Below, piece after piece: positions 3,122 to 19,496 of a stretch of 39,763 bases of DNA. The notes under the pieces were generated by a model, which worked only from the letters and a program-made list of their open reading frames with translations, was not told the origin of the DNA and did not search any database. This DNA comes from Deltaproteobacteria bacterium (GTDB lineage: Bacteria; Desulfobacterota; Deferrimicrobia; Deferrimicrobiales; Deferrimicrobiaceae): assembly GCA_016234845.1 (NCBI GenBank), contig JACRNP010000034.1, positions 1 to 39,763 of the forward strand, written 5' to 3'. A program made the translations under genes and the position numbers. Each line of letters opens with the position of its first letter. Within the stretch, counting starts at the first letter, position 1.

Positions 3122-3166
3122 AGGGATAACCGCCCCACCTTTCAAGGGACAAGGAGGACATTTTCT

Positions 3167-3793
3167 TTGGCAAGGTATCGTGAGGCCGTTTGCAGGCTGT
3201 GTCGTCGGGAGGGCGTGGAGCTCTACCTGAAGGGGGATCGCTGCTTCACCGACAAGTGCGCGATCAAGAGAAGGGGATACCCGCCGGGGCAGCATGGTCA
3301 GCGCCGTCCGAAGCACAGCGACTACGGCGTCCAGCTCCGGGAGAAGCAGAAGGCGAAGAGGATCTACGGCCTCCTCGAGCGGCAGTTCCGGAACTATTTC
3401 GAGAAGGCCGAACGGATGAAGGGGAAGACCGGCGACAACCTGCTGATCCTCCTGGAGCGGCGTCTGGACAGCGTCGTCTACAAGCTGGGATTCGCGCAGA
3501 CCCGCCGGGAAAGCCGGCAGATCGTTCGTCACGGCCACTTCGTCGTCAACGGCCGGAAGGTGAACATCCCGTCGTTCCTCGTGCGGGCGGGAGACGCGGT
3601 CGAACTGAGGGAAAAGAGCCGGAAGATCCCCAACGTCAACGAGGCGCTCGACGCGGTCGTCCGAAAAGGGATTCCGCCCTGGCTCGAGCTCGATCGGGAA
3701 AGCTTCCGGGGAACCGTCAAGGCGCTACCGGCGCGGGCGGACATCCAGGAGCCGATCCAGGAGCAGCTGATCGTCGAGCTCTACTCGAAGTAA
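3167..3793 (+). CDS. rpsD: 30S ribosomal protein S4, zinc-binding form
   Basis: S4 (uS4), a primary 16S rRNA-binding assembly protein and in enterobacteria the translational repressor of the alpha operon. The TTG start at 3167 gives (M)[15 protein letters not shown], with AAGGAGG at 3151-3157 as ribosome site. The 208-aa protein has N-terminal C9/C12/C26/C31 (CRLC...CFTDKC), the zinc-binding variant. The S4 RNA-binding domain follows at about 97-160 ([39 protein letters not shown]). It ends with the conserved [12 protein letters not shown] see no obvious alpha-operon-type pseudoknot, but did not fold the leader. Confidence 0.97.
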
Positions 3794-3823
3794 ACCTCTT
3801 TTGGGGCAGGAGAAGGGGGAATA

Positions 3824-4831: not shown

Positions 4832-4857
4832 CCAACTGAACCAGACGAGGATGCCCA

Positions 4858-5421
4858 ATGCGCCACGCGAATGACCACCGGAAACTGGGAAGGAGCCCTT
4901 CGCACCGGAAGGCGCTCCTGCGGAACCTGATGAACAGCCTGGTATTGGCCGAGCGGATCGAGACCACCGTACCGAAGGCGAAGGAGCTGCGTCCGCTGGC
5001 GGACCGCCTCATCACGCTCGGAAAACGCGGAACCCTGCACGCGAGGCGGCGGGCCTTCGCCCTCCTGAGCAGCAAGGGCGCGACCGACAAGCTGTTCGAG
5101 ACGCTTTCCGGCCGTTTTTCGTCGCGGGACGGCGGCTACACGCGGATCGTCCGCACCGGATTCCGGCCGGGGGACGGAGCGGAGATGGCGATCCTCGAGT
5201 ACTTGCCGGCCGAGGAGAAGAAGGCGGGCGCCAAGGGCAAGAAAAAGAGGAAGGCGCCGGCGCGGAAAACCGCGGAGAAGGCGGCCCCGGCGAAGAAAGG
5301 TTCCGCGGCCGGGGAAAAAGCCACGAAGACCGCGAAGGCCAAGGGTAAGGTCGCCGACGGGGAAAAGAAGGCGAAACCCTCTCGCGCCCCGAGAAAGAAG
5401 AAGCCCGCGGAAGGGGAGTGA
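4858..5421 (+). CDS. rplQ: 50S ribosomal protein L17 with long basic C-terminal tail
   Basis: L17 (bL17), located near the peptide exit tunnel. Residues 1 to about 116 match the family: [58 protein letters not shown] and a final MAILEYL. Typical bacterial L17 ends about there (115-130 aa), whereas this protein has 187 aa. The extra ~67 residues are almost only K, A, P, G, E, R and T, with repeated KKxAPA-like units resembling histone H1/AlgP-type tails. The codon and base composition continues that of the core, so it is an extension rather than a frameshift. Last gene of the ribosomal operon; a terminator follows 35 nt downstream. Confidence 0.95.
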
Positions 5422-5456
5422 TTCCGCCCGCGCCGGCGATCCGGACAGGAACGACG

Positions 5457-5487
5457 AAACGGCCCTTCGGGGCCGTTTTTATTTTTC
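5457..5487 (+). terminator. Rho-independent terminator of the ribosomal operon
   Basis: AACGGCCC TTCG GGGCCGTT hairpin: nine pairs from 5457-5465 with 5470-5478, closed by the extra-stable C(UUCG)G tetraloop at 5466-5469, followed by a T-rich run to 5486 interrupted by one A. It ends the rplQ transcript and abuts the -35 element of the next promoter. Confidence 0.93.
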
Positions 5488-5517
5488 TTGACCCGCCCCC
5501 GGGCCGGGCTGTAACAT
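5488..5517 (+). promoter_or_regulatory. Candidate sigma70 promoter of the fur-feoB operon
   Basis: TTGACC at 5488-5493 (5 of 6 to the -35 consensus) and TAACAT at 5512-5517 (4 of 6 to the -10) are separated by 18 nt. The predicted transcription start, about 5524, falls inside the Fur box. No other convincing promoter is seen before the next large gap, so this may drive much of the downstream cluster. Confidence 0.65.
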
Positions 5518-5536
5518 GAAATTGAAAATCATCTTC
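5518..5536 (+). promoter_or_regulatory. Fur box (predicted operator)
   Basis: GAAATTGAAAATCATCTTC matches 14 of 19 positions of the classical GATAATGATAATCATTATC Fur operator, including an intact central A-ATCAT. It lies directly 3' of the -10 and 17 nt before the TTG start of the fur-family gene. Binding there would block the start site, so autoregulation and iron repression of feoB are the natural reading (inference). Confidence 0.7.
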
Positions 5537-5553
5537 ATCATGAGGTAATCCCC

Positions 5554-5997
5554 TTGAAGCGGCTGCTGAACCGGATCGACCGCGAGATCCAGGAAGCGGG
5601 CGGCAAGAGAAGCCGCAGCCGCTCGGCCGTGATGGAGCAGTTCTTCCACGGACGCGACCATCTCACGGTCGACGAGCTTACGGCCGCCGTACGGGAGAAA
5701 TCCTCCCGCGTGGGCGCCGTCACGGTGTACAGGACCCTCAAGCTGCTCGTGCGGATGGGCTACGCCAAGGAGGTCGATTTCGGGCAGGGGGCCAAGCGGT
5801 ACGAGAACAACCTGGTATCCCACCACGACCACCTGGTTTGCCGGAAGTGCGCCTCCGTGACCGAGTTCGAGGACCCGGACATCGAGAAATTCCAGGATCG
5901 GGTCACCCGGCGGCACGGATTCCGTCCGACGACGCATCGTCTCGAGATCTACGGCTTCTGCCGGAAATGCTCGCCGGAAGGGAGGAGGAAATCGTGA
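5554..5997 (+). CDS. fur: Fur-family ferric uptake regulator
   Basis: Metal-dependent DNA-binding repressor of the Fur family, 147 aa. The N-terminal winged helix spans about residues 10-83, with the recognition helix around VGAVTVYRTLKLL. The metal-sensing dimer domain follows, with the HHDH cluster (H90-H93), two CxxC pairs at C96/C99 and C136/C139 for structural zinc, and H121 and H128. The pattern is that of Fur rather than Nur or Irr, but PerR and Zur cannot be fully excluded from sequence alone. The TTG start at 5554 is chosen from the GAGG at 5542-5545. The stop overlaps the feoB GTG by 4 nt, and a Fur box precedes the gene, so it is probably autoregulated. Confidence 0.9.
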   Translation: MKRLLNRIDREIQEAGGKRSRSRSAVMEQFFHGRDHLTVDELTAAVREKSSRVGAVTVYRTLKLLVRMGYAKEVDFGQGAKRYENNLVSHHDHLVCRKCASVTEFEDPDIEKFQDRVTRRHGFRPTTHRLEIYGFCRKCSPEGRRKS

Positions 5998-7973
5998 CCT
6001 CCGTCCCCGGGGGCGGGAAAACGGTCGGCGGACCCGCGACGGTGATCCTCGTCGGGAACCCGAACGTGGGGAAAAGCGTCGTATTCGGCGCGTTGACCGG
6101 GCGCTACGTGAACGTCTCGAACTATCCCTGCACGACGGTGGAGGTCACCCGGGGAGAAGCCTCGGAACGGGGGAAGTCGTACGAGGTGATCGACACGCCC
6201 GGCGTCTACTCCCTTCACCCGATGTCGGAGGACGAGCGCGTCACGCGCGACATCCTGATGCGGGAGCCCGGCGCCAGGGTCCTGCAGGTGTGCGACGCCA
6301 AGAACATGCGTCGTTCGCTCCTGATCACCCTCCAGCTCTCCGAGATGGAACTGCCGCTCCTCCTCGCGGTCAACATGTCCGACGAGGCGAGGGACCGCGG
6401 AGTGATGCCGCGAATGGAGGCGATCGACGGGCGGCTTGGGGTCGCCGCCGTCCCGACGGTCGCCGTCCGGAAGAAGGGCACCGACCGGCTTCTGGCCCTC
6501 CTGGACCGAGCGAAGCCGGCGACCGTCCGCGTCCATTACGGCGAGCGGATCGAGGGCGCCGCCAAGCGGATGGCGGATCTGCTTCCGGCCGACGTGCCGT
6601 TGGGCAGGCGCTCGCTCGCGCTGATGCTCCTGTGCGGCGACGATTCCCTGACGCCATGGGTGACGGAGAACGTCGACCCGCTCCGGATCCGCGAGATCAA
6701 CGCCGTCCGGAACCGCCTCGTGGAGGAGATGGGGGAGGAGGTGGCGTACCGGGTGACCCAGACCCGTCTCGCGTGGATCGACCGGCTCCTCGAGGAGGCC
6801 GGGGTCGAACCGTCCCGCCCCGCCGGAAGGGATTTCGCGCAGGCGTTCGGGAAGTACGCGATGGATTCCGCATATGGGATCCCGATACTGCTCGGGGTGC
6901 TGACCCTGGCCTACCTGTTCGTCGGCCTGTTCGGGGCCGGCTACCTCGTGGACCTGCTGCAGGGCGCCGTGTTCGGGAGGTGGATCGTGCCGGCGGTCGG
7001 ACGGGCGGCCGATTTCGCACTGCCGTGGCCCCTGGCGCGCGATTTCCTCGTCGGTCCGTACGGGATGATCTCCATGGCCCTGTCGTACGCGGTGGCGATC
7101 GTATTGCCGATCGTCGGCACCTTCTTCCTCGGGTTCGGGATCCTCGAGGATTCGGGGTACCTTCCGAGGCTCGCCGTGATGGTCGACCGTCTGTTCCGGA
7201 AGATCGGGTGCAACGGAAAGGCGGTCCTGCCGATGGTCCTCGGCCTCGGATGCGACACGATGGCCACGCTCACCACCCGGATCCTGGAGACGCGGAAAGA
7301 GCGGCTGATCGTGACCCTCCTTCTCGCCCTCGGGGTGCCGTGCTCCGCCCAGCTGGGAGTGATCCTCGGCATGCTCTCGGACGTGGGGCCGGCCGGTACG
7401 GTCACCTGGCTCGCGATCCTGTCGGGCGTGATCCTCCTCGTCGGGTACCTCGCCGCGAAGGTCATTCCCGGCGACTCGGGCGATTTCATCCTGGAGATTC
7501 CTCCGATCCGGATGCCGCGGATCGGCAACCTCGTCGTGAAGACGATGGCGCGGATCGAGTGGTACCTGCGCGAAGCGGTCCCCCTCTTTCTCCTGGGCAC
7601 GTTCATCCTCTTCGTCGCGGACCGGATGGGGTGGCTCCTTTGGCTTCAGAAGGTCTCCGAGCCGCTGGTGGTCAACGCGCTCGACCTTCCCCCGAAGACG
7701 GCGGAGGCGTTCCTCATCGGGTTCCTGCGGCGCGACTACGGGGCCGCCGGGCTCTTCAGCATGGCGAAGGAGGGGATGCTCTCGCACCGCCAGGTGGTCG
7801 TCAGCCTCGTGACCATCACCCTGTTCATCCCGTGCCTCGCCAACTTCCTGGTGATCGTGAAGGAGCACGGCGGCAAGGTGGCCGCCGGAATGGCGCTGTT
7901 CATCTTCCCGTTCGCCCTGGTCGTCGGAACCGCCGTCAACTTCGCGGCCCGATGGCTCGGCGTCCGTTTCTAG
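5994..7973 (+). CDS. feoB: Ferrous iron transporter FeoB
   Basis: Inner-membrane Fe(II) transporter with an N-terminal GTPase, 659 aa from the GTG at 5994 (GGAGGAGG at 5981-5988; GTGA overlap with fur). G1 is GNPNVGKS at 21-28, followed by the FeoB-typical NYPCTTVE switch, DTPGVYSL (G3) and NMSDEA (G4 region). A helical GDI-like spacer follows, then about eight transmembrane segments from residue ~290. Within the membrane part, GCDTMATLTTRILETRKER, PCSAQLGV and FLRRDYGAAGLF correspond to the conserved Cys-containing pore motifs; the GCDTMAT form differs from the GCNVPA of E. coli. The protein is shorter than the 773-aa E. coli FeoB. No stand-alone FeoA gene is adjacent. Confidence 0.95.
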   Translation: MTSVPGGGKTVGGPATVILVGNPNVGKSVVFGALTGRYVNVSNYPCTTVEVTRGEASERGKSYEVIDTPGVYSLHPMSEDERVTRDILMREPGARVLQVCDAKNMRRSLLITLQLSEMELPLLLAVNMSDEARDRGVMPRMEAIDGRLGVAAVPTVAVRKKGTDRLLALLDRAKPATVRVHYGERIEGAAKRMADLLPADVPLGRRSLALMLLCGDDSLTPWVTENVDPLRIREINAVRNRLVEEMGEEVAYRVTQTRLAWIDRLLEEAGVEPSRPAGRDFAQAFGKYAMDSAYGIPILLGVLTLAYLFVGLFGAGYLVDLLQGAVFGRWIVPAVGRAADFALPWPLARDFLVGPYGMISMALSYAVAIVLPIVGTFFLGFGILEDSGYLPRLAVMVDRLFRKIGCNGKAVLPMVLGLGCDTMATLTTRILETRKERLIVTLLLALGVPCSAQLGVILGMLSDVGPAGTVTWLAILSGVILLVGYLAAKVIPGDSGDFILEIPPIRMPRIGNLVVKTMARIEWYLREAVPLFLLGTFILFVADRMGWLLWLQKVSEPLVVNALDLPPKTAEAFLIGFLRRDYGAAGLFSMAKEGMLSHRQVVVSLVTITLFIPCLANFLVIVKEHGGKVAAGMALFIFPFALVVGTAVNFAARWLGVRF

Positions 7974-7982
7974 GCTTTCGCC

Positions 7983-8177
7983 GTGGCGAAGACCATACGC
8001 TGCCCCCTGTGCGGTTTCGACATCGATCCGTCCGACAGGGGATGCCGCTCGGGTTGCCCTTTGGGCGCGAACTGCTCCCTTGTCTGCTGTCCCAGATGCC
8101 GGTACTCTTTCCCCATGCCGGAATCGAAGGTGATCCGGTTCCTCCAATCCCTGTTCCCGAAAGGACCCGGGAAATGA
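7983..8177 (+). CDS. Small Cys-rich protein of the feo locus
   Basis: 64-aa protein with eight cysteines in its first 39 residues: C7, C10, C21, C25, C31, C35, C36 and C39. The CPLC and CPRC pairs at the two ends look like a zinc ribbon or an Fe-S/Fe(II) site; four further Cys lie between them. The C-terminal part (KVIRFLQSLFPKGPGK) is a short amphipathic basic segment. No signal peptide or membrane helix is seen, so it should be cytoplasmic. The GTG start is 9 nt after feoB, and the stop overlaps the next ATG by 4 nt. I know similar short Cys-rich ORFs beside feoB in related bacteria but no established function; a FeoC-like accessory role is a guess. Confidence 0.75.
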   Translation: MAKTIRCPLCGFDIDPSDRGCRSGCPLGANCSLVCCPRCRYSFPMPESKVIRFLQSLFPKGPGK

Positions 8178-8821
8178 CCGACTACGGGCAGGACGAGATC
8201 CTCGAGCTCCTCTGGACGCTGCGGGAGGACGGAAAGTCCACGAGACCGGAGCTGCTGGAATCCTCGGCGGAGGAGCGGACGGACGGTATCCTCGAAGAAC
8301 TCGTAGCCTCGGGCCACGCCGAGCTTTCCGGAGAGGCGATCCGGCTCACCCCCCGGGGGGAGGAGCGTGCGAGGGGAATCATCCGCCGGCACCGGCTGGC
8401 GGAGGTGCTTCTGCACAACCTGTTCGACCTGGACAACGTGCAGGTCGAGAGCAGCGCCTGCCAGTTCGAGCACATCCTGTCGGAAACCGTGGTGGAAAGG
8501 GTTTGCGCTTTCCTCGGGCACCCTCCCGCATGTCCGCACGGGAGACCCATTCCCCGAGGGGAGTGCTGCGATCTCATCCGGAAGGAGATCCAGCCCCTGG
8601 TTTCGCGCCTCTCCGATGCCGCCCTTGGGGAACCGGTGCGGATCGTGTTCATCACGCCCAAATCGAAGCGGCGGCTCGAGAAGCTCTCCTCTCTTGGAAT
8701 CGTCCCCGGGAGCAGCGTGCGCCTCCTCCAGCGGAACCCTTCCTACGTTCTTCAGGCGGGGGAAACCACCGTCGCGGTGGACAAGGACATAACGGATGAA
8801 ATCTACGTGCGGCAGGCGTAG
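8174..8821 (+). CDS. DtxR/MntR-family iron regulator with C-terminal FeoA domain
   Basis: 215-aa metal-dependent repressor. Residues ~5-60 form a winged helix (KSTRPELLESSAEERTDGI, then RLTPRGEERARGII). RRHRLAE at 71-77 and C96..E99-H100, H116 match the dimerisation and metal-binding domain of DtxR/IdeR. The HPPACPHGRPIP segment at 116-127 is typical. Residues ~140-215 form an SH3-like FeoA domain (GEPVRIVFITPKS ... LEKLSSLGIVPGSSVRLL). Extra cysteines at 111, 120, 131 and 132 go beyond the usual single-Cys metal site. It may combine sensing with a FeoA-like contact to FeoB. The ATG overlaps the previous stop; the end overlaps the PEGA gene by 26 nt. Confidence 0.88.
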   Translation: MTDYGQDEILELLWTLREDGKSTRPELLESSAEERTDGILEELVASGHAELSGEAIRLTPRGEERARGIIRRHRLAEVLLHNLFDLDNVQVESSACQFEHILSETVVERVCAFLGHPPACPHGRPIPRGECCDLIRKEIQPLVSRLSDAALGEPVRIVFITPKSKRRLEKLSSLGIVPGSSVRLLQRNPSYVLQAGETTVAVDKDITDEIYVRQA

Positions 8822-10046
8822 CCGCGTCGCGCTAGCCCTGTGCGTCGCCATGGCGTCGCAGTGGGCGACTCCCTGGTCATCCCCCGCGGACGAGATCCTC
8901 CCGGAGCCGGCGCTGTTGCTGCGATTCGCCGGGTCCGACATCCCTCCCGACGAGGCGAAGGCGTCCCTGGGAATTCTACCCGGGGCGTTTTCCGGGACCG
9001 TGCGGGTCCGGTGGGTCCCGGTTCCCGCGGAGCCCGATCCGGTGCAGGGGGGGGAACGGGAGTTTCCGGTTCCGGACGACGCCGCATTGCGGGCGATCTC
9101 CGAAACGGTCGCGAAGGCGTCGATCCACATGGACAGGGTGGAGGACGCCGCCGCGGCGAAGGTATTGGCGGAAGCGGAAGCCCTGGTCCGACGATACCGG
9201 TTCACCGACGCGACCCGCCCGTTCCTCGCCGAAATTTTCCTGCGGGAGGGGATACTGAAGATCCGGGAAGGGGACCCCGGGGGCGCGGAAAAACTGCTGG
9301 CCCGCTCGAGAGCGCTTCGTCCGGGCTTTTCCCCCGATCCGGCGCTGTTCCCTCCACAGGTTCTCGCCGCATGGGAAGGCGCCAGGGGGCGCCCCCTCCC
9401 GGAGGCCGACCTGCTGGTGCAATCCCTCCCGTCGGGCGCCGCCATCTTCGTGGACGGCGATCCGAGAGGGACCACTCCGTCCCGGGTCCGTCCGGGAAAG
9501 ACCGGGCCGGTACGGATCCGCGTTTCCCATCCCGGGTACAGGGATGCCGAACGGACCGGTCAATGGCTGCCGGGCGACTCGGAGACCATCGGGTTCACCC
9601 TTTCCGGGGATCGCGTGGCGAGGCTCGGGGAACTCCTGGCCGACGCTTCCAGGCGGAGAGGCGAGGGAACCGGCCCGCTCGTTTCGGAGATCGCGCGGGC
9701 AGCGGGCGTTTCCCGCGTCGCGTTGCTCGCGTTCGAGCGCAGGCCGGACGGTTTCGAGGCGCGGATCTACAGCGGGGGGGCGGGGGGAGCGGATCCGGTT
9801 CTCCTCGGCGCGGAACGGTTTCCGGCGACCGCCGGGGATGCGATCGCGAGCTGGGCGTCGTCGAAACTTCTCGCCGCGGGGTGGCCCGGAAAGCGGGAGG
9901 AGGCGGGGGCCAAGCCGTGGTACAATAACTTCTGGTTCTGGACCGTCGTGCTGTCGGCCGTCGGGCTGGCCGCCGCCTTGGGGGGAGGCGGAGGGGGAGG
10001 GGGATCAGGCGGGTCCTCGAGCGGCACGGTAACGGTCAACTTCTGA
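8796..10046 (+). CDS. PEGA-domain envelope protein with C-terminal membrane anchor
   Basis: 416-aa exported protein. Residues 1-32 look like a signal peptide (basic CGRRSR, then VALALCVAMAS, cleavage near WSSPA-DE). Residues ~100-190 form a helical, TPR-like stretch. A PEGA domain lies at ~207-270 (LLVQSLPSGAAIFVDGDPRG ... VRIRVSHPGY), a fold usually found in surface or periplasmic proteins. A helix at ~380-395 (WFWTVVLSAVGLAAAL) is followed by a run of eight glycines and a short polar tail. The function is unknown. The start overlaps the regulator gene by 26 nt; a 32-nt gap separates it from the 12-haem cytochrome, so it may serve the cytochrome module. Confidence 0.75.
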   Translation: MKSTCGRRSRVALALCVAMASQWATPWSSPADEILPEPALLLRFAGSDIPPDEAKASLGILPGAFSGTVRVRWVPVPAEPDPVQGGEREFPVPDDAALRAISETVAKASIHMDRVEDAAAAKVLAEAEALVRRYRFTDATRPFLAEIFLREGILKIREGDPGGAEKLLARSRALRPGFSPDPALFPPQVLAAWEGARGRPLPEADLLVQSLPSGAAIFVDGDPRGTTPSRVRPGKTGPVRIRVSHPGYRDAERTGQWLPGDSETIGFTLSGDRVARLGELLADASRRRGEGTGPLVSEIARAAGVSRVALLAFERRPDGFEARIYSGGAGGADPVLLGAERFPATAGDAIASWASSKLLAAGWPGKREEAGAKPWYNNFWFWTVVLSAVGLAAALGGGGGGGGSGGSSSGTVTVNF

Positions 10047-10078
10047 ACCACCGGAAAGAACAGGAACCGCTTCCCGCC

Positions 10079-11422
10079 ATGCCCATCCTCTTGGCACTGC
10101 TCCTCCTTGCCTTCGCCCCGGTATGCGAAGCGACGGACGGCGAAACCGTCATCCGCGACCTCGGAAAAACCCGGATCATCCCCTCGAACGAGGCGCCGCA
10201 CAACATCCTTTCGGACGCGTGCCTCGCGTGCCATCCGAAGGAGAAGTTCGAGTTCTGGCTCCTGATCTACAAGGGGAAGCCGCCGACCGTCAGCGTCGAC
10301 CGGTTGCGGAAGCCGGAAGCCGCAGACGCGCCGGGGACGCCGTCCGGGAAACCGGCACAGGCGAACCGGTACAATTCGCACGACGGTCTCGCGTGCAACC
10401 TTTGCCACTTCGACAATCCCACCGGAACGACTCCGAAGTTCATCGTCGACGTCGCGGACCTTTGCCGCCTGTGCCACCCCGCCGTGGAACCCCACCGCCT
10501 TCCCGAGGGAGAAGGTCTCGATGTCGTGCGGAAGGCGATCCGCGAGAGGAAACTCCCCGGACGCGACGGGAACCTCCTGTGCACCACATGCCATAAAACG
10601 CACGATGCGACGTTCTCGATGCGGGACGCGTACGCCCAGGTGCTCTGGGAAGGGAAGGTGCCGAACCCTCACGGCAGCCGTCAATTCTGCTTCGCGTGCC
10701 ACCCCGGGAAGATCCGCGAGGGAGAGGAGATCCGGTTCGCCGCCGGGAGGGACAACAACCGCCTCTGCAACGAGTGCCATCTGCGGCCCGGCGTCCGAAA
10801 GGCGCCGCACGTGATCGACCTCACCTCGTCGGAGGGGACGTGGCGGATGGATTACCTGGGATACCCGCTGAACCAGGGGAAGTTGACCTGCTCCACGTGC
10901 CACGACGAGGTGTCCCACGGGAAACCGGATTCCGCGAACCCGAAATTTCTCCGGGGAGGACCGTACGCGGATCCGGACCGTTTCTGCTACCGTTGCCACT
11001 CGGAGGAAAAGGAAGTGTACGACAATCCCCACCGTCAGGTCGACGCGTTCGGCAGGGTGCGCGGGGAGTCGTGCCGGTTCTGCCACAAGGGGATACCCGA
11101 TCCGGACAGGAGAAAACCGGAAGACCTCGAACTGGTCGGCGAGGATGCATCCGTATGCTCGAACTGCCACCAGATCCGTCCCCACCCCGGCGCGGAGCAC
11201 GGCGTCCTCCTGAAAGGTGAAAAGCTGGCGCGCAAGGAGGAGTACGAGAAGAGGCACCAGGTCCGCCTGCCGCTCGCGGCGGACGGGAAGATCAAGTGCA
11301 GCACCTGCCACAATCCGCATGCGAAAGGGGTGTTGAAAGGGGAGGCCGGCGTGGGAGCCGGTTCCCGCTGGCGGGTGCCCGATTTCCGTGAAATGTGCGC
11401 ACCGTGCCACGGGCGGTACTGA
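10079..11422 (+). CDS. Periplasmic 12-haem c-type cytochrome
   Basis: 447 aa with an N-terminal signal peptide (MPILLALLLLAFAPVCEATD) and twelve CXXCH haem-binding motifs: CLACH, CNLCH, CRLCH, CTTCH, CFACH, CNECH, CSTCH, CYRCH, CRFCH, CSNCH, CSTCH and CAPCH. No C-terminal anchor is seen, so it should be periplasmic or exported. Motif pairs spaced about 25-45 residues apart and frequent extra His (HKTHD, NPHG, NPHAKG) fit the doubled-CXXCH cytochrome class with bis-His ligation. No OmcS-, OmcZ- or MtrA-type assignment can be made by eye. It precedes exbB by 40 nt. Confidence 0.92.
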   Translation: MPILLALLLLAFAPVCEATDGETVIRDLGKTRIIPSNEAPHNILSDACLACHPKEKFEFWLLIYKGKPPTVSVDRLRKPEAADAPGTPSGKPAQANRYNSHDGLACNLCHFDNPTGTTPKFIVDVADLCRLCHPAVEPHRLPEGEGLDVVRKAIRERKLPGRDGNLLCTTCHKTHDATFSMRDAYAQVLWEGKVPNPHGSRQFCFACHPGKIREGEEIRFAAGRDNNRLCNECHLRPGVRKAPHVIDLTSSEGTWRMDYLGYPLNQGKLTCSTCHDEVSHGKPDSANPKFLRGGPYADPDRFCYRCHSEEKEVYDNPHRQVDAFGRVRGESCRFCHKGIPDPDRRKPEDLELVGEDASVCSNCHQIRPHPGAEHGVLLKGEKLARKEEYEKRHQVRLPLAADGKIKCSTCHNPHAKGVLKGEAGVGAGSRWRVPDFREMCAPCHGRY

Positions 11423-11462: not shown

Positions 11463-12128
11463 ATGATCGACCTGTTTCTCAAAGGGGGTTTCGCCATGTA
11501 CCCCCTGCTCGTCCTGTCCGTCGTCACCGTCGCGATCGCGATCGAACGGACGGTCTATCTCCGGAAAGCCAGGATCAACACCGGCGAGTTCATGGAAGCC
11601 ATCAACGGTTTCCTTACCCGGAACGCGCTGGAAGACGCGCACCGGCATTGCGAATCGACCTCGGGGCCGATTTCGCGGATCATCATGGCCGGCCTGAAGA
11701 ACCAGAAGCGGGGGCGGGACGAAGTCGTACGCTCCATCGAGGACGCCGGGGCGATCGAGGTGGCGCAGCTGGAACGGGGGATCCTGATCATCCAGACGAT
11801 CTCGAAGCTGGCGCCGCTGATCGGGCTCTTCGGAACCGTGACCGGAATGATCCGGTCGTTCCAGGCGATCGGGGGCGCCGGGGGAGAGAACCCGAGGATG
11901 GTGGCGGCCGGCATCGGCGAGGCGCTCGTCGCGACCGCGGCGGGGCTGGTCGTGGCCATCCCGGCCTACTTCCTCGGGTTCTACTTCATGAACCTCGTGG
12001 GAAAGTTCATCCTCGACATGCAGAAGAGCTCCATCCAGCTGCTCGACTCCCTCGGCGAACTGGAGGAGATGATCGCGGAGCGGACCCAGCGGTTCGATAC
12101 GATCGGGGGTGACTACCTTGAGATTTAA
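11463..12128 (+). CDS. exbB: ExbB/TolQ-family proton channel
   Basis: 221-aa inner-membrane proton-channel subunit of a TonB- or Tol-type energiser. The ATG at 11463 is supported by GGAGGGAG just upstream. Three transmembrane segments are visible: about 10-28 (FAMYPLLVLSVVTVAIAI), 108-130 (LAPLIGLFGTVTGMIRSFQ region) and 152-178 (ALVATAAGLVVAIPAYFLGF). The MotA/TolQ/ExbB signature GLFGTVTGMI and the EALVATAAGL helix are intact. It overlaps exbD by 20 nt. Because a tonB gene follows, I read the set as ExbB-ExbD-TonB rather than Tol-Pal. Confidence 0.9.
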   Translation: MIDLFLKGGFAMYPLLVLSVVTVAIAIERTVYLRKARINTGEFMEAINGFLTRNALEDAHRHCESTSGPISRIIMAGLKNQKRGRDEVVRSIEDAGAIEVAQLERGILIIQTISKLAPLIGLFGTVTGMIRSFQAIGGAGGENPRMVAAGIGEALVATAAGLVVAIPAYFLGFYFMNLVGKFILDMQKSSIQLLDSLGELEEMIAERTQRFDTIGGDYLEI

Positions 12129-12528
12129 GCGCCGCGTCCAGGGGGACGAAGAAGGGATCCCCATCACCAACCTCGTGGACGTCCTGTTCCTCCTCATCGT
12201 CTTCTTCATGATGTCCACCGTGCTGAGTTTCGATCGCGGGCTCGGAGTGAAGCTTCCGGAGAGTCAATCCGCGGGGGCCATTTCGAACAAAGGCGTCAGC
12301 GTGCTCGTCAACCGGGAAGGGAAGGTGTTCGTCGACGGCTCGGAAGTGCCGCTGGACCGGCTCGGGGAGACGGTGAAGGGGAAGCAGCGGAGCGCGGGGA
12401 CGAACGTGATCCTCAAGAGCGACCGGGAGACGCGTTTCCAGGCGATCGCGGACGTCATGGACAGGCTGCTCGCCGTCGGGATCTCGGATCTGTCCCTCCC
12501 CGTCGTGGAAAGGGGAGCGGAGAGGTAG
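12109..12528 (+). CDS. exbD: ExbD/TolR-family protein
   Basis: 139 aa. A short basic cytoplasmic N-terminus leads into one transmembrane helix (ITNLVDVLFLLIVFFMMSTV, residues 19-38), which contains D24, the proton-carrying aspartate of ExbD/TolR. A periplasmic domain with the GVSVLVNREGKVFVDG and VILKSDRETRFQAIADVMD blocks follows. The start is GTG 12109 or TTG 12118; both are downstream of a weak GGGGG and neither is decisive. The gene overlaps exbB and lies 4 nt from tonB, so the three should be translated together. Confidence 0.9.
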   Translation: MTTLRFKRRVQGDEEGIPITNLVDVLFLLIVFFMMSTVLSFDRGLGVKLPESQSAGAISNKGVSVLVNREGKVFVDGSEVPLDRLGETVKGKQRSAGTNVILKSDRETRFQAIADVMDRLLAVGISDLSLPVVERGAER

Positions 12529-12532
12529 CGCG

Positions 12533-13378
12533 TTGAATTCTTCGGGGGCGCGCCGATTCCTCCAGCCTGCGCTGTACCTCGCTGTGGCGACGTTTGCGCA
12601 CGGACTGCTGTTCCTCATCCCCGGGGAGTGGGGGAAGCCGGACAGCGGTACGACGCGGGGGATCCGGGTCAAGGTCCAGGGCGAGGCGCGCAGTGCCGCG
12701 GCGACCACGCGGCCGGCAACGGCTCCTTCGCCTCCGACCGCTTCCTCCGCGCCATCGGCGCTGCCGAGGAGGGACTCCGCGCCGGGCGCTTCGGGAGGCG
12801 GGGGGGGGACGCCGGGCGGAGCCGGCGGGACGGAGCCGACCGGCGGCCCGGTGGCCGGGGATGCCCCCCCGACTTCGGAATACGGCTCGTACCTGGCGCG
12901 ACTGAAGTCCGAGGGGGTGCAGGGGTGGGCGCGCGACAGCGCGGGGAAACTTCGCCAGGGGTGGAAAGGGAGCGGGAAATCCGGGAGCGGGTGGGGAGGA
13001 GGCTCCGGCACGGGTGCCGGGACCTGGACCGGCGGGGGAACGGGTCCGGGTACCGGCGGGGGGGGGTACCTGGACCCGAGAGTGCGCATGGTGGTGACCA
13101 GCTACCCCCCGACCTCCATCGAAAAGCGTCACACCCAGGTCCCGTATCCGGAAATCCGGGTCAAGAAGCACGAGTACGTCACGGGGTGGTGGAACGTCTA
13201 CATCCAGGTCTGGACCGACGGGGACGGGAAAGTGGTCAGAAGAACCGTCCTGCGCCCCGAAACCGACGGCGCGCTGGAGAGGATCTTCGTAACGCAGGTG
13301 AAGCGGGAGATCGAAAAGTGGTCGTTCGAACGGAAAGAGGCGGAGATCAACGTGGACGTGAGGTTCTACGTTGAATAG
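12533..13378 (+). CDS. tonB: TonB-like energy transducer with Gly-rich linker
   Basis: 281 aa with TonB architecture. It has an N-terminal helix (LYLAVATFAHGLLFLI, ~13-28), a long disordered linker (~35-185) and a C-terminal TonB fold (~185-281: TQVPYPEIRVKK, WWNVYIQVWTDGDGKVVRRT, IEKWSFERKEAEINVDVRFY). The linker is unusual: mostly Gly, Ser, Thr and Ala with several GGG runs, rather than the Pro-Lys/Pro-Glu repeats of classical TonB. The start is TTG at 12533 with GGAGCGGAGAGG upstream. The end overlaps the next cytochrome gene by 8 nt. No TonB-dependent receptor is present in the window, so its client is unknown. Confidence 0.82.
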   Translation: MNSSGARRFLQPALYLAVATFAHGLLFLIPGEWGKPDSGTTRGIRVKVQGEARSAAATTRPATAPSPPTASSAPSALPRRDSAPGASGGGGGTPGGAGGTEPTGGPVAGDAPPTSEYGSYLARLKSEGVQGWARDSAGKLRQGWKGSGKSGSGWGGGSGTGAGTWTGGGTGPGTGGGGYLDPRVRMVVTSYPPTSIEKRHTQVPYPEIRVKKHEYVTGWWNVYIQVWTDGDGKVVRRTVLRPETDGALERIFVTQVKREIEKWSFERKEAEINVDVRFYVE

Positions 13379-14135
13379 CGCGAGGGCCGCCGGGGTCCTC
13401 CGGCGGCTCCTCCTGGCCGTCGGGTTCCTGCTGTCCTCCTCTCCCGCGGCGGGATCGGACCAGGAAGGGTGCATGCTGTGCCACCGCCTGGAACTGCGCC
13501 TCCCCGCCGACAACGCGGCGAGGTCGTTGCGGACGCACGATTCCCCGGGAGGGAGTCACGACTCCCTGTACTGCTCCGACTGCCACCCGGACGCCCGGAC
13601 GGTGCCCCATCCCGCGACACCCGGGCCCGCGCTGTGCGTGGGCGAATGCCACGGCGGTACGGCGTCGTCGAAGTCCACGCACCGAAACGCCGGCTTCGGC
13701 GGATTGACGGAGGAGCACCGCTCCGCCGCCCTTCCGGGAACGCCGTGCCGGTTGTGCCACCGTGCCTCGGACGGGAAGGCCGGAAGGGCCCTGATCCGCG
13801 AACGTTGCGCCTCGTGCCACGCAGCGGAGTCGGCCGAGGTCTCCAGGGGGCCGCACGGACGGGCGATGGGCGGCTCGTGCGTCGATTGCCACCCGGCGCA
13901 TCCGACGGCGACCGCGGCCGCGGGCACCGGGAGGATGTCGTGCGGCGGAACCGGATGTCACCGCGGGTCGACCCCGCGGATGGAGTCCCTCGTCCGGCAC
14001 AGGAGCCGGGACGCCGCAATCCCCGTCGGAAGCGTCCTGTCGCGCGGTGCGGTCTTCTTCGCCATCGCGGCGGCGGGATGGGTCCTGGGCGCGATGCTAT
14101 CCCCCCGCATCACCCGCAGGGGAGATGCCCCTTGA
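13371..14135 (+). CDS. Membrane-anchored multihaem cytochrome with variant haem motifs
   Basis: 254 aa from a TTG at 13371. It has a signal peptide (RRLLLAVGFLLSSSPAAGSD) and a C-terminal transmembrane helix (GAVFFAIAAAGWVLGAML, ~224-242), so the haem domain should sit in the periplasm attached to the inner membrane. Five standard motifs are present (CMLCH, CSDCH, CRLCH, CASCH, CVDCH), plus a CX3CH (CVGECH) and a CX4CH (CGGTGCH). That gives up to seven haems if the variants are used. It resembles NapC/NrfH- or DMSO-type quinol-linked cytochromes only in topology. The gene overlaps the cytochrome b gene by 4 nt, so the two may form a complex. Confidence 0.85.
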   Translation: MNSARAAGVLRRLLLAVGFLLSSSPAAGSDQEGCMLCHRLELRLPADNAARSLRTHDSPGGSHDSLYCSDCHPDARTVPHPATPGPALCVGECHGGTASSKSTHRNAGFGGLTEEHRSAALPGTPCRLCHRASDGKAGRALIRERCASCHAAESAEVSRGPHGRAMGGSCVDCHPAHPTATAAAGTGRMSCGGTGCHRGSTPRMESLVRHRSRDAAIPVGSVLSRGAVFFAIAAAGWVLGAMLSPRITRRGDAP

Positions 14136-15073
14136 CCTGGCTGACCGCGCCTCCGAGGATCCGCCGGTTCACCCGGCACCAGCTCGCGCAGCACTGGGCG
14201 GCATCCGCCGTTGCCGTGCTCCTGATCCTGACATCCGTTGCGATGATCATCGGGGTGCCGATCGGCGCAACACTCCACGTCTACTTCGGACTGGCGGGCG
14301 CCGGGCTGCTGCTTTTCCATGCGTTGTACCTCGTGGGAGTCGGGATCCGCACGGACGTTCCTTTGGAAAAGGTCGCCTTCCTCCCGTCGCGCGAGGACCG
14401 GGGGGCGATCCGCAGCGGAACCACGCATCGGTCGCCGGCGGGGAAATACTCTCCCGCGGAAAAGGCCGACTATTTCGGAATCGTCCTCTGGTCCACGCTC
14501 GTCGCGGCGACGGGCGTGCTCCTGTATCGTCCGACGATGTTCGGGATTCCATCATTCGCCGCCTACGCATGGGTGCGGACGGTCCATGCCGGGTGTGCGG
14601 CCGCCTGGCTGATCCATCTTTCGACGGTCCACGTGTCCGGGAGGTGGTTCGGCGAGACGACCGGCCTCCGCAACGCGATCCTGTCCGGAACGGTCCCCCT
14701 CGAGGAAGCGGAAAGAAGAAGGGGGTGGATTGCCGATCTCGTGGCCGCGGGCGTCCTGGTTCCGGTCCCCGAGGAAGTCGTCCCCGAAGAGCGCAAGGAG
14801 TCGCAGAGGGTGAGGGACCTCCTCGAGGAGGGGAACCGTCTCGCGCGGGAGGGGGATTTCGGGGGAGCCTGCACGGTGTACGAGGACGCGCTGCGGCTGT
14901 TCCCGGACTACTCGCAGGCGCGCTACAACCTGGCGGTCGCGTTGACGAGAGGCGGGAAACGGACCGAGGCGAGGGAGCAGCTCCTCCGGTTCATCGAAAT
15001 GGACCCGTTCAATCCGATGACGGAAAAGGCGCGGGAAATGCTGGTCGCCCTCGGGAACGGGGAGCCGGAATGA
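14132..15073 (+). CDS. Cytochrome b (di-haem type) fused to TPR repeats
   Basis: 313 aa. The first ~180 residues form four transmembrane helices with histidines placed as in b-type cytochrome subunits of the FdnI/NarI/HydC group: H16/H21 (RHQLAQHW), H49, H63 (LLLFHALYL), and H's in VRTVHAG and AWLIHLSTVHVSGRWF. It should oxidise or reduce quinone and hand electrons to a periplasmic partner. The C-terminal ~100 residues are soluble and contain two TPR units (EEGNRLAREGDFGGACTVYE and ARYNLAVALTRGGKRTEARE). A TPR tail on such a cytochrome b is unusual. The TTG start at 14132 overlaps the preceding cytochrome stop (TTGA). Confidence 0.8.
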   Translation: MTWLTAPPRIRRFTRHQLAQHWAASAVAVLLILTSVAMIIGVPIGATLHVYFGLAGAGLLLFHALYLVGVGIRTDVPLEKVAFLPSREDRGAIRSGTTHRSPAGKYSPAEKADYFGIVLWSTLVAATGVLLYRPTMFGIPSFAAYAWVRTVHAGCAAAWLIHLSTVHVSGRWFGETTGLRNAILSGTVPLEEAERRRGWIADLVAAGVLVPVPEEVVPEERKESQRVRDLLEEGNRLAREGDFGGACTVYEDALRLFPDYSQARYNLAVALTRGGKRTEAREQLLRFIEMDPFNPMTEKAREMLVALGNGEPE

Positions 15074-15621
15074 ACCGCCCTGCGATCCTCCTTCTTCGAG
15101 CGGGGACGATCCTCTTGGCCGCCGCGATGTTCCTCCCGGAGGCGGGAAAAACCTGGCGCGCCGGCGCGGCCGCCCGTCCGTCCGCGGCCCCATCGAGCTA
15201 TTTCCACGGGGGGAAAACGGCGATCCGGGTGCCGCCTGCCGGGGGATGCCTCGCCGAATCGTGTCACAAGTCGCCGGCCCACCCCCGACGGCGCCCGGAG
15301 AGCGCTTTCCTCAACATGCACGAGACGGTCGTGGCGTGTCTCGGGTGCCACGGAAGGGATCCCGAACGGCACTGGACGGCGCCGGACCCCTCGGGGGACC
15401 AGAAGATGTTCCGGGTAGCCTATTCAAGGGGGCAGGCAACGGAGAAACCCCACGATGGGACAACGGCTCCGGCCCGCTGCCCGCGATGCCATTCGGGGAG
15501 CGGGAGGACGGCGCTGGCGGGAGCCGGGGTCGCGGGCTTGTCGGATGGATTCGATTCGCCGATCCCGATGCGGATGCTGGAGGGGGGGGGCAGGAAATGG
15601 CTGGCCGAAGACGCCCGATGA
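15070..15621 (+). CDS. Small exported cytochrome with three haem motifs
   Basis: 183 aa with a hydrophobic N-terminus (LLLRAGTILLAAAMFLPEAG) acting as a signal peptide or anchor. Haem sites are CLAESCH (a CX4CH variant), CLGCH and CPRCH. The rest is low in recognisable structure, and the last ~45 residues carry no haem motif. No family can be assigned. ATGA overlap with the cytochrome b gene and overlap with the following NHL gene argue for coupled translation and a role in the same electron-transfer complex. Confidence 0.75.
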   Translation: MNRPAILLLRAGTILLAAAMFLPEAGKTWRAGAAARPSAAPSSYFHGGKTAIRVPPAGGCLAESCHKSPAHPRRRPESAFLNMHETVVACLGCHGRDPERHWTAPDPSGDQKMFRVAYSRGQATEKPHDGTTAPARCPRCHSGSGRTALAGAGVAGLSDGFDSPIPMRMLEGGGRKWLAEDAR

Positions 15622-16511
15622 TTCCCGCGGCGCTGCTCGCCGCCTGCGTGCTCTGGGGGCACGGGACCGCGATCGCCGCGGGAACCGAGGCTGTCCGCAC
15701 GATCTCCAGGTCCCAGGGGAAACCGTTTTCGCTTCCGTCCGATGTGGCGGTGGACCGCAACGGCGTGCTGTTCCTGCTGGAGTCGGGATCCCGTTCGATC
15801 TCGATCTACTCTCCCCGCGGGGAGTTCCTGCGGGAGATCCAGGGCAGGGGAACATGGAAGGATCCTTCGGCGATCGCCGTTGCGCCGGACGGGTCCATTT
15901 TCCTGGCCGACGGGAATTCCGGAAGAGTCCTCGAACTGGAGCTGTCGGGGAGGATCCGGCGGGAGCACACGGCGGGAGGCAACGCCCGGATCACGGGCGT
16001 CGGGCTGTACGGAAGCTCCGTTTTCGGAGCGGACAACCGGAACCACCGCATCGTCGTCTTCCGAAGGGCCGGAGGGGCGCCCGACTATTGGGGGAAGCGG
16101 GGGGAGGGGCCGGGGGAGCTCCACTCCCCTTACCGGCTCGTGGTCGACCCTTCCGGGAGAGTGTTCGTCACCGACGTGATGAACGCGCGGGTCCAGTGGT
16201 TCTCCCCGTTCGGGAAACACCTGGGTACGTTGAAGCGGTTCGGGGCGGGGGAAGGCAGGATCTTTCGCCCGACGGGGATCGCGCTCGATCCGAGAGGGCA
16301 GGTGTGGATCGGGGACAGCTACACGGGGCTGGTCCAGCTGTTCGATCTGAACGGAACGTTCGTGAAAGGGATCGGCGCCCGGGGGAACCCCAAGGTATTC
16401 GCGGATCCCGTCGGCCTCGCGGTATCGGAGTCGGGGATATGGGTTGCGGATCAGAAGGACAACCGGGTCGGAATGTACGGGGAAAACATAAACGCAAAGG
16501 TGAGAAAATGA
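15597..16511 (+). CDS. Exported NHL-repeat beta-propeller protein
   Basis: 304 aa. I prefer the ATG at 15597 (GGGCAGG upstream, N-terminus MAGRRRP before the hydrophobic stretch), which overlaps the preceding gene by 25 nt. The in-frame ATG at 15618 (ATGA overlap) is a real alternative. After the signal peptide, five to six NHL repeats of about 42 residues follow. Examples are LPSDVAVDRNGVLFLLESGS, DPSAIAVAPDGSIFLADGNS, SPYRLVVDPSGRVFVTDVMN, RPTGIALDPRGQVWIGDSYT and DPVGLAVSESGIWVADQKDN, which together make a six-bladed propeller. Such proteins often scaffold exported complexes and are common in multihaem cytochrome clusters. No catalytic motif is seen. Confidence 0.85.
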   Translation: MAGRRRPMIPAALLAACVLWGHGTAIAAGTEAVRTISRSQGKPFSLPSDVAVDRNGVLFLLESGSRSISIYSPRGEFLREIQGRGTWKDPSAIAVAPDGSIFLADGNSGRVLELELSGRIRREHTAGGNARITGVGLYGSSVFGADNRNHRIVVFRRAGGAPDYWGKRGEGPGELHSPYRLVVDPSGRVFVTDVMNARVQWFSPFGKHLGTLKRFGAGEGRIFRPTGIALDPRGQVWIGDSYTGLVQLFDLNGTFVKGIGARGNPKVFADPVGLAVSESGIWVADQKDNRVGMYGENINAKVRK

Positions 16512-16714
16512 GCGGAACCAAGTGGGAATACGGACAAATTTTTCTTAAGAGTCCGGATGTCTTCGGCGGTCTTCCCAAGACCGGCCTGGAGATGGAGAAG
16601 ATGAACCGCGCGGGGGGGGAAGGATGGGAGGTCGTCGGGATCGTCCCCTTCACGCTCCCGACGGGGGAGGTCCGGGGGGCGTTCGTGCTCTTCAAGCGGG
16701 AAGTCGCCGGTTGA
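16508..16714 (+). CDS. DUF4177-like small protein
   Basis: 68-aa soluble protein. The WEY...GGEGWEVVGIVPF...FVLFKR pattern is that of DUF4177-type proteins, small beta-alpha-beta modules of unknown role. No signal peptide or Cys is present, so it is probably cytoplasmic, which is odd among exported cytochromes. ATGA overlap with the NHL gene; the 30-haem cytochrome starts 19 nt later. Confidence 0.7.
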   Translation: MSGTKWEYGQIFLKSPDVFGGLPKTGLEMEKMNRAGGEGWEVVGIVPFTLPTGEVRGAFVLFKREVAG

Positions 16715-16733: not shown

Positions 16734-19496
16734 TTGATCCGGTTCCTCGCCCTTATCGCGGCGCTCTCGCCCCTCCTCCTGGTTCCGGCAGGCGCGCTCG
16801 CCCAGGCCGGTTTCGACCAGGAAAAGTGCTCCCTCTGCCACATCCGCGACAGCGTCTTCCTTCAACCGGGGTTTCTCAACCCGGAACGTTCGAAGGAGTT
16901 CGACGAGGAGCGGCTTTGCGGAAGTTGCCACAACGGCTCCGTCGAGGACAGCCGCGGCGTGCTCTGGCGGGGGGAGCAGCATCCCGCGCCCCCGGCAAAG
17001 AGGAAGGATCGCGGCTGCTCCGTCTGCCACTCCCCGCACACGAAAGGCGGATGGAGCGTGCTGGCGGGGAGCGGCGTCCCCCTCCGCAGGGGAGGAAATG
17101 CGGTCTGCACCGGGTGCCACCCGTCGTACCGCTCCTCGAAGATCGGACCGCACCTGCGAAGTTCGGCGGAGTCGATGTGCCGGGATTGCCACCAGGCGCA
17201 CGGCGGGACGGGCAAGGCCCTCTTGAGGGAATCCGGCGTCGGACTCTGCCTCCGCTGCCACGGGGAACTCGATCCGTCCAGGGGGGGCGGGCATCCCGTC
17301 GCGGAACTTCGAGGAGCGGCATCATCGAGAATGCCGGTGTGCACGGCGTGCCACCCCGTCCACCAGCCGGGGGAAATCGCCGCGGCTCCGACGGCGCGAT
17401 GCGCGGGGTGTCATCCGTTCGACGAGGGGAAAGGGCGGGAGGCCGTAAAGCGGCATACCGGAGAGGAGAACTGCTCCTCCTGCCACACGTTTCACGCACG
17501 GGCGGGGGGAGGCGGCCGGGCGTTCCGCGGGAAGGACATCCGCGTCGAATCGGTATGCAGGGGGTGCCATACCGCCTATTGGGCCGGCGATGTCGCGGCG
17601 GGGAGGTCGAACGGAACCCACGTCACGTTCTCCAAGGCGACGAAAGCGGAGATCTGCACGCGGTGCCACAGCGTCCACCGCGGGACCGCGGGGACGCCGC
17701 TCCTTCGGACCGCGAAGCCGTACTTCTGCCTGGAGTGCCACGAGTCCCAGAACACGATCCGGGAGATCGGCGGAGTGGCGCTCGCGCACCCGGTGTTCGA
17801 AAAGCTCGGGAAAGGGAGGCTTACGGAAGTCGCGCGGGAGAAGAAGCTATCGGTCGGCCCGGGCGGCGAAATCATCTGCGCGACCTGCCACAAGGTGCAC
17901 GGTTCCACGCCGGGGACGTCCCTGCTCGCCCCCGGCTCGGAAAAAGGGGAGAGCTGCTTCTGGTGCCATGGGGGGAAGAGGGGAAGCAGCCACAAGGCCG
18001 CGTCCCGGGAGCCGGGAAACGATTGCGCCATCTGCCATGCGACGCACGGCCGGAAAAGCACGGGATCCGATCCATGGATCGCGCTCTGCCGGAGCTGCCA
18101 TCCGAGGGATGCCGTGCACAAGCCCGGGCGCGAGGACCGGGAGGTGGGGCGATCGGACGACCTGCCCGATTTCGACTCCCGGGGAAGAAAATCGTCCTTC
18201 GGGGACATCAGCTGTCCCACCTGCCACCAGCCGCACGGGATGACCGCCGAGCCGAAACGGCTCCGGAAGAACTATCGCCCGGGCGCCATCCTCTGCACGA
18301 CGTGCCATCGCCGACAGGAGTCGATCGCGCTGACGCCGCACGACCTCCGGGGGATCTCCGGCGATAGCGCCTGCGAGCCGTGCCATGTGCCGCACGCCGG
18401 CGCTCCCCCCTGGATGTGGGGGATGAAGCGGGGCACGGGGGAGATCGCCGAGGAGACGTGCCGCGCTTGCCACCCGGGAAAAGGCGGGAAAGGCGCGGGC
18501 ACTCCCGTCGCGGAAGGCGGACACCCGAGGAACGTCATGGCTTCCCGTCCGATGCCGGACGGTTTTCCGTTGTACGGTCCGGGCGGCGATACGACCCGCA
18601 AGGGGGTCGTGTCGTGTCCGACGTGCCACGAGGTCCACGGCACCGGGATCATGCCGACCGGGCGGGGAGTCGAAAAGCTGCTTCGACGAACGGACGGGAG
18701 CGGTTCCGGCGCGCGGGGAAAGCCGTTTTCATGCACCGCCTGTCATTCGGGGAAGGAGACCGCCCACGGGAAGGCGGATTGCATCGGATGCCACCCACCG
18801 CACTCCGAGGAGAAGCCGGAACGGATCTGTTCCGGATGTCACCGGGTCGGCGAGGGATTCCTCCTCGGGAAACACCGTTCCGCCGGGAAAAGTTGCGGCT
18901 CCTGCCATTCGATTCACGGATCGGGGGGGGGGAAGGCGTCGGAGAGCGGTTGCGCCGGCTGCCACCCCGGCACCCTGAGGATCCGGAAGACCTCGCACGC
19001 CGCGATCGGGGACTCCTCCTGCGACCCGTGCCACCCGGTCCACCGGGACCCACCGACACCCGTCATCAAGTGGAGAATCGGCGAAGACCCGTTTGTCCCG
19101 AACATCCCGTGCCTGCGCTGCCACGCGGAAGGCGGAATCGCCCCCGTCCCCGCCTGGCCGACGCATCCCTCGCGGGAATCCGAAGTGCCGACCAACTACG
19201 GGGCGAAAGTCGTCCTCGAGACCCCGATCAGCATGCTGGGGCGATACAAGGAAGGGGACCGCCCGCTGTTCCCCCTGTTCGGTCCCGACGGCAAGCGGTC
19301 CCTCTCCGGGGTCATGGGGTGCCTCACGTGCCACGATCCCCACGCGGGCGGGATGCGGGACGGGGAGCCTTCGGCGAACGCGTATCTCCGGGATCCGGGC
19401 CACGCCTTCCTGGCGGAACTCTGCTCTTCGTGCCACCGCGGGGACACCTCGGACCGGGTGAGGAATTTCCACAAACTTCCGCGAAAAGGGCATTGA
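16734..19496 (+). CDS. Giant 30-haem c-type cytochrome
   Basis: 920 aa from TTG 16734, with a clear signal peptide (LALIAALSPLLLVPAGALAQA, cleavage after AQA). Thirty CXXCH motifs run from CSLCH near residue 32 to CSSCH near residue 900, about one per 30 residues. Many occur as CxxCHxxHG...LL...CxxCH pairs typical of doubled-CXXCH domains, so the protein looks built by repeat duplication. It has no transmembrane anchor or lipobox, so it is periplasmic or secreted. Two longer motif-free stretches, near residues 330-380 and 790-865, may be non-haem inserts. The terminal HKLPRKGH gives no sorting signal I know. A long haem wire across the periplasm or outside the cell is the likely role (inference). 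Confidence 0.9.
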   Translation: MIRFLALIAALSPLLLVPAGALAQAGFDQEKCSLCHIRDSVFLQPGFLNPERSKEFDEERLCGSCHNGSVEDSRGVLWRGEQHPAPPAKRKDRGCSVCHSPHTKGGWSVLAGSGVPLRRGGNAVCTGCHPSYRSSKIGPHLRSSAESMCRDCHQAHGGTGKALLRESGVGLCLRCHGELDPSRGGGHPVAELRGAASSRMPVCTACHPVHQPGEIAAAPTARCAGCHPFDEGKGREAVKRHTGEENCSSCHTFHARAGGGGRAFRGKDIRVESVCRGCHTAYWAGDVAAGRSNGTHVTFSKATKAEICTRCHSVHRGTAGTPLLRTAKPYFCLECHESQNTIREIGGVALAHPVFEKLGKGRLTEVAREKKLSVGPGGEIICATCHKVHGSTPGTSLLAPGSEKGESCFWCHGGKRGSSHKAASREPGNDCAICHATHGRKSTGSDPWIALCRSCHPRDAVHKPGREDREVGRSDDLPDFDSRGRKSSFGDISCPTCHQPHGMTAEPKRLRKNYRPGAILCTTCHRRQESIALTPHDLRGISGDSACEPCHVPHAGAPPWMWGMKRGTGEIAEETCRACHPGKGGKGAGTPVAEGGHPRNVMASRPMPDGFPLYGPGGDTTRKGVVSCPTCHEVHGTGIMPTGRGVEKLLRRTDGSGSGARGKPFSCTACHSGKETAHGKADCIGCHPPHSEEKPERICSGCHRVGEGFLLGKHRSAGKSCGSCHSIHGSGGGKASESGCAGCHPGTLRIRKTSHAAIGDSSCDPCHPVHRDPPTPVIKWRIGEDPFVPNIPCLRCHAEGGIAPVPAWPTHPSRESEVPTNYGAKVVLETPISMLGRYKEGDRPLFPLFGPDGKRSLSGVMGCLTCHDPHAGGMRDGEPSANAYLRDPGHAFLAELCSSCHRGDTSDRVRNFHKLPRKGH

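Follow-up and report, generated by a model that had tools for sequence, protein, structure and literature searches.

The window analysed here is a 39,763-nucleotide stretch of DNA from a bacterium of the family Deferrimicrobiaceae (assembly GCA_016234845.1, contig JACRNP010000034.1). Within it lie ten co-directional genes, several of which overlap by four bases, and the last of them encodes a 30-haem cytochrome, referred to as C30. The initial annotation missed this ten-gene module, which, as judged from gene order and sequence, is conserved in at least five bacterial families. A literature search of open-licence papers found no published description of it. Its members run in the order C12, ExbB, ExbD, TonB-like, C7, cytochrome b561-TPR, C3, NHL, DUF4177-like and C30:

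10079..11422, + strand: C12, a 12-haem c-type cytochrome with an N-terminal signal, the first gene; 12 CXXCH motifs, all conserved in 10 orthologues
11463..12128, + strand: ExbB, a proton-channel subunit; Pfam MotA_ExbB 4.2e-31; syntenic in all module loci examined
12109..12528, + strand: ExbD; Pfam ExbD 2.2e-23; syntenic
12533..13378, + strand: TonB-like protein; N-terminal membrane helix, Gly/Pro-rich linker and C-terminal domain, as read from the sequence
13371..14135, + strand: C7, a 7-haem cytochrome with a C-terminal membrane helix; five CXXCH motifs plus CVGECH and CGGTGCH
14132..15073, + strand: cytochrome b561/FdnI-type membrane protein fused to TPR; Pfam Ni_hydr_CYTB 1.3e-9, TPR_16 1.7e-9
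15070..15621, + strand: C3, a small 3-haem cytochrome; one CX4CH and two CXXCH motifs, sites conserved in 8/9 genomes
15618..16511, + strand: NHL-repeat beta-propeller with a signal peptide; Pfam NHL 8.9e-25
16508..16714, + strand: DUF4177-like protein, 68 residues, no signal; Pfam DUF4177 5.4e-5, just below cut-off
16734..19496, + strand: C30, 30-haem cytochrome; open reading frame of 920 residues with a TTG start
16803..19493, + strand: mature C30, 897 residues, ~95 kDa without haem, pI 8.9; cleavage predicted after ALA

Together, these genes encode 52 c-type haems. A plain CXXCH scan undercounts them, finding five sites instead of seven in C7, which also uses CX3CH and CX4CH, and two instead of three in C3 (CX4CH). 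The seven C7 motifs and seven further histidines (14 conserved histidines) recur in 10 genomes, one of which lacks the first cysteine of the final motif. In the PDB, the b561-TPR protein matches formate dehydrogenase cytochrome b556 (1kqf_C, 7e-4). Because no TonB family profile from Pfam or NCBIfam matches 12533-13378, the name TonB-like rests on sequence layout and on the position of the gene after exbBD; the C-terminal ~105 residues are mostly 35-45% identical across other families. The DUF4177-like protein, which has no signal amid exported cytochromes, is among the best conserved members (58-79% identity across families). Pfam matches revealed no porin, outer-membrane lipoprotein or secretion genes in the window module, and promoter and terminator scans gave nothing scoring over shuffles.

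Haem array of C30

The C30 gene opens with the first in-frame start, a TTG 19 bp past the stop of the preceding gene. No clear Shine-Dalgarno sequence precedes it, and the start is the weak point of the gene call. Its 920-residue product contains exactly 30 CXXCH motifs, as the initial annotation had stated, and all 60 of its 60 cysteines fall inside them; composition-matched shuffles gave a mean of 0.26 motifs and a maximum of 4 (2000 trials). The regular pairing of motifs described in the same annotation is equally real: motifs 3, 5, ..., 29 read CXXCHxxH in 14 of 14 cases and no even-numbered motif does, so that CXXCHxxH and CXXCH alternate strictly over motifs 3-29 (probability by chance ~2e-8). 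Its third claim, that an anchor is lacking, also agrees with the sequence, in which a Sec-type signal peptide of about 23 residues lacks a lipobox and every other hydrophobic 19-mer in a whole-protein scan stays at or below KD 0.65. Pfam recognises Paired_CXXCH_1, Cytochrome_C7 and Cytochrom_c3_2 in C30, and the score against Paired_CXXCH_1 (PF09699), 149.5 bits over five stretches against a gathering score of 20.6, places it among doubled-CXXCH proteins. No relatives of C30 were found in viral contigs. Between motifs 28 and 29 lies a strongly conserved haem-free stretch (residues 798-862, window 19125-19319) ending PLFPLF...SG..GCLTCHDPHAG, which may be a docking domain.

Haem ligation was assessed with four close orthologues, 49-50% identical to C30 and one of them partial, and with a more distant partial one at 38%. 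All haem motifs present in these five sequences align with C30 motifs. Outside the motifs C30 has 31 histidines, 29 of which are invariant among the close orthologues, while those at 890 and 920 are not shared. At position 908, C30 itself has Arg, and all five of the other sequences that extend over it have His. By this count, the close orthologues have enough histidines for bis-His ligation of every site, and in C30 one of its private histidines, 890 or 920, may serve as the last ligand. A single non-bis-His haem had been considered from the 29 conserved distal histidines and was dropped once the other sequences proved to have a 30th, at 908. Several distal histidines are not kept in place in families f23, f46 and f89, and full bis-His ligation, as read from the alignments, holds for the close group only.

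The array itself is more widely shared. Ten sequences from five families, 31-50% identical, keep the 30 sites in one-to-one register. Departures are limited to gaps where sequences are incomplete, a single weak site in one incomplete sequence and one CXXCH fewer in one genome (G083); additional haems occur only in another (G300), which has four of them inserted close to residue 130. A profile of C30 motifs 3-8 also picks up residues 243-347 of C30 (4e-10), and the two-haem unit is, by this internal alignment, a true repeat. The initial annotation had proposed that C30 was built by internal duplication and that an internal repeat alignment could check this; the proposal stands for the two-haem unit, provided that the duplication is not taken to be recent. 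The one-to-one correspondence of sites between families indicates that the complete 30-haem array is ancient.

Conservation, gain and loss of the module

The order of the module is identical in three other genomes of the window family (G016, G011, G001) and essentially the same in two genomes of f23 (G046, G196), one of f46 (G083) and one of f89 (G300). In the f24 genome (G047), it is divided between two contigs. The corresponding C30 proteins carry 30 haems in G046 and G196, 29 in G083, 34 in G300 and 18+12 in G047. A single in-frame TAA separates the 18 and 12 haems of the last (L070:3053-6760) and may reflect two proteins or a sequencing error. Outside the window family the flanks vary, with a metallophosphatase and an RND pump in one family and a redoxin and MlaC in another, and because they differ, the unit is C12 to C30. 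The two cytochromes occur together in 6 of the 26 genomes of the class, none of the remaining 20 has C12, and neither occurs alone; C12 is also present in all four f23 genomes sampled. The pair offers a clear marker by which further genomes with the pathway could be recognised.

In the window family, the module is flanked on one side by a PEGA gene, which follows feoB and dtxR-feoA, and on the other by divIC-GGDEF-argS. The PEGA gene directly adjoins divIC in one module-less relative (G004), an empty site, and in three others (G005, G008, G009) a gene named by reading its sequence lies between them:

L083:4699-6015, L084:4530-5825, L082:4992-6272: FAD-dependent oxidoreductase-like gene in module-less relatives
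L082:6273-6500, - strand: C12 relic in G005, a broken start of C12 with first haem motif CITYH, then a stop

Given this broken relic and the occupied or empty sites, at least the G005 lineage has probably lost the whole module in one piece.

The ExbBD-TonB set also follows the module. One Plug-domain receptor was found in the window genome and one in each of three module-less genomes (G004, G005, G012), and G004 and G012 have only one ExbB/TolQ-family gene each. The module carrier G083, rated 100% complete, has no Plug-domain receptor. As G083 thus keeps the set without a receptor, and as G004 and G012 have a receptor with a single ExbB-family gene, ExbBD-TonB tracks the module; by gene content, it goes with the cytochromes and not with ordinary receptors.

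Proposed electron path and competing readings

In metal-respiring bacteria, small cytochromes that diffuse are usually taken to ferry electrons across the ~200 Å periplasm. In peptide-minimal cytochromes (<5 kDa per haem), length is reported to grow linearly with haem number, and ~27 haems are estimated to span a 200 Å periplasm (PMC7096707). C30 has 29-34 haems in its complete orthologues, just over this bridging estimate, which makes the idea of a fixed wire testable in one protein. From the published scaling, C30 would be about 220 Å long if the chain is straight. At the spacing of known cytochrome filaments, 7-8.5 Å per haem from helical rises (PMC12954529), a straight chain would measure 210-255 Å. 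AlphaFold2 modelling of the whole protein from two sequences gave pLDDT 26, a low confidence, and was discarded. An 8-haem piece, modelled from an alignment of 19 repeat-unit rows from C30 and relatives, reached a low-confidence pLDDT of 50 and gave no fold match in Foldseek.

The initial annotation had suggested a long periplasmic or extracellular wire. A long soluble multihaem wire fits, because each haem is carried on 3.2 kDa of peptide (~30 residues), the CXXCH motifs are paired and there is no anchor. As for location, the signal peptide indicates export, and the periplasm is favoured over the extracellular space because the operon has an anchored C7, a quinone-type cytochrome b and ExbBD-TonB, and no porin, outer-membrane lipoprotein or secretion genes. 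The preferred reading, for which the chances are put at about even, is that C30 is a soluble, elongated periplasmic wire forming the end member of a quinol-fed electron-transfer module, with ExbBD-TonB acting at the outer-membrane end. With the quinone-type cytochrome b and the anchored C7 at one end, a fixed wire from the inner toward the outer membrane is the simplest arrangement.

Under this proposal, menaquinol would be oxidised at the cytochrome b561-TPR protein, and electrons would pass to the membrane-anchored C7, then to C3 and C12, and on to C30. C30 would extend as far as the outer membrane and hand over to an acceptor or conduit whose gene lies elsewhere, and the final acceptor might be iron or another extracellular compound. 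Powered by the proton gradient, ExbB-ExbD-TonB would act at the outer-membrane end to open, load or position a partner. The NHL propeller could be a docking scaffold. That the module carries respiratory electrons across the periplasm is probable, and ExbBD-TonB is an unusual companion for such a pathway. A stronger version, which is tentative and rather doubtful, is that the proton-driven ExbBD-TonB and a continuous, periplasm-spanning 30-haem wire form one machine, an undescribed respiratory module whose motor gates or loads the outer-membrane end. If so, electron export would depend on force from the inner membrane. The linkage of ExbBD-TonB to the cytochromes raises the question of whether the proton gradient drives or gates outer-membrane electron transfer.

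Similarity searches bear on a different role, in which C30 would be an outer-membrane conduit with an MtrA-like N-terminal part within a beta-barrel encoded elsewhere and the remainder extending into the periplasm. A profile of ten C30 orthologues searched against the PDB found its best solved relative in 6r2q chain A (3.8e-18 over ~210 positions), presumably MtrA within the MtrCAB complex. The search library labels this chain 'Cystathionine beta-synthase', though its sequence, with its haem motifs, is that of a decahaem cytochrome. Further matches were 6qvm ('Multiheme cytochrome cf', 6.8e-17), HmcA (2e-11) and 3ov0 (5.5e-7), the last of which is taken here to be GSU1996. Likewise, the best NCBIfam models for C30 are TIGR03508 (MtrA/DmsE decahaem, 144.8 bits) and NF041028 (OmcK/GSU2203 decahaem, 128.7 bits). 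Both scores fall below the cut-offs, however (192.2 and 325, respectively), as does that against the 16-haem HmcA model NF045713 (29.8 bits, cut-off 400). Moreover, the window genome (~96% complete) has no match to the MtrB/PioB barrel (PF11854), and the module has none in any family examined. An MtrAB-type conduit was down-weighted on this absence and is considered unlikely.

Thirty haems in a soluble protein, in a module without an outer-membrane partner, would also suit a periplasmic electron store that buffers respiration like a capacitor instead of conducting in one direction, a role suggested for the large PCC3 cytochromes (PMC10734462). Storage alone, however, leaves unexplained why the number and placement of haems have barely changed between deeply diverged sequences and why the modules include ExbBD-TonB and a quinone-type cytochrome b, and C30 is probably not a store.

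Less probable still is a role of the module in iron acquisition, with ExbBD-TonB importing a ferric chelate, the cytochromes reducing it within the periplasm and FeoB taking up Fe(II). The Feo neighbourhood was weighed as a functional link, and the module does lie directly downstream of feoB, the DtxR-FeoA gene and the PEGA gene in the window family, but Feo adjoins the empty site in module-less relatives too and was not found beside the module in other families. In addition, 52 c-type haems would be costly for uptake, and the complete module carrier G083 manages without a Plug receptor.

It is very improbable that C30 is a secreted subunit of a filament that polymerises outside the cell: solubility, lack of an anchor and a low peptide-to-haem ratio would allow it, but the similarity to filament cytochromes that the initial annotation had proposed to look for amounts to short or marginal matches to OmcE (1.8e-6 over ~60 positions) and OmcS (8e-4 over ~40) and no match named OmcZ in the profile-search list, Geobacter filament subunits carry only 4-8 haems (PMC12954529), no secretion or filament genes lie near C30, and its in-cis histidines nearly suffice for all haems, as in OmcZ and unlike OmcS and OmcE. 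The extracellular nanowire was accordingly rejected as the lead reading, there being no whole-subunit homology and no filament genes.

Relation to known cytochrome systems

The preferred reading, a periplasmic wire within a quinol-fed module, can be set against several characterised systems. MtrA, DmsE and PioA are built from the repeat unit His-x(n)-CXXCHxxH-x(n)-CXXCH that is common to C30, but they carry ten haems and work with an MtrB-type barrel, whereas C30 has 30 and no such barrel was found. OmcK of Geobacter has similarly paired motifs and differs in size and context. At the inner membrane, the CbcL-type quinol dehydrogenases of Geobacter combine a multihaem c part with a b-type membrane part and draw electrons from menaquinol. 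Compared by description, the c part (C7) and the b part are encoded by separate genes in the module, and the b part carries TPR.

Among pathways, a close parallel is the periplasmic PCC3 cytochrome of Sideroxydans and other Fe(II) oxidisers. Like C30, it is very large, is built from repeats and has a low residue-to-haem ratio and a predicted periplasm-crossing length, and its gene accompanies one for a quinone-type inner-membrane haem b protein (PMC5566968, PMC10734462). PCC3 is known here by description, and the shared low ratio is a likeness of kind, not homology. The PCC3 subunit of Gallionellaceae has 21-27 haems, whereas C30 has 30 (29-34 in orthologues). PCC3 also includes a porin, an extracellular cytochrome and a five-helix HX13H membrane protein, whereas the present module has a b561/FdnI-type protein, and neither a porin nor an extracellular multihaem cytochrome was found in the window module or recognised in the loci of other families. 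C12, C7, C3, the NHL protein and ExbBD-TonB are additional to PCC3. Some of these recur in the Uet pathway, which, compared by description, has an 11-12-haem doubled-CXXCH cytochrome, 3-haem cytochromes and NHL proteins, as in the module (PMC10734462). Uet differs in its beta-barrel UetC, peptidyl-prolyl isomerase and extracellular tetrahaem subunit, and neither ExbBD-TonB nor a 30-haem wire is described there (PMC10734462).

Very large cytochromes are already known in such bacteria, with up to 43 haems in MBNT15/Deferrimicrobiota genomes (PMC9386147) and up to 86 in Desulfuromonas (PMC12133095), and haem number alone is therefore not new. In its 67% GC, its size and its cytochrome content, the window genome appears similar to those MBNT15/Deferrimicrobiota genomes. 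The window genome itself encodes, on a contig other than that of the module, a 2486-residue frame with 43 CXXCH motifs (L050, G000:C12:15000-34999, 2961-10421), beside which lie frames with 14, 17 and 19. What is new is the conserved module with ExbBD-TonB. The closest known kinds to C30 are the MtrA/DmsE repeats and the 21-27-haem PCC3 cytochromes, and it belongs to neither.
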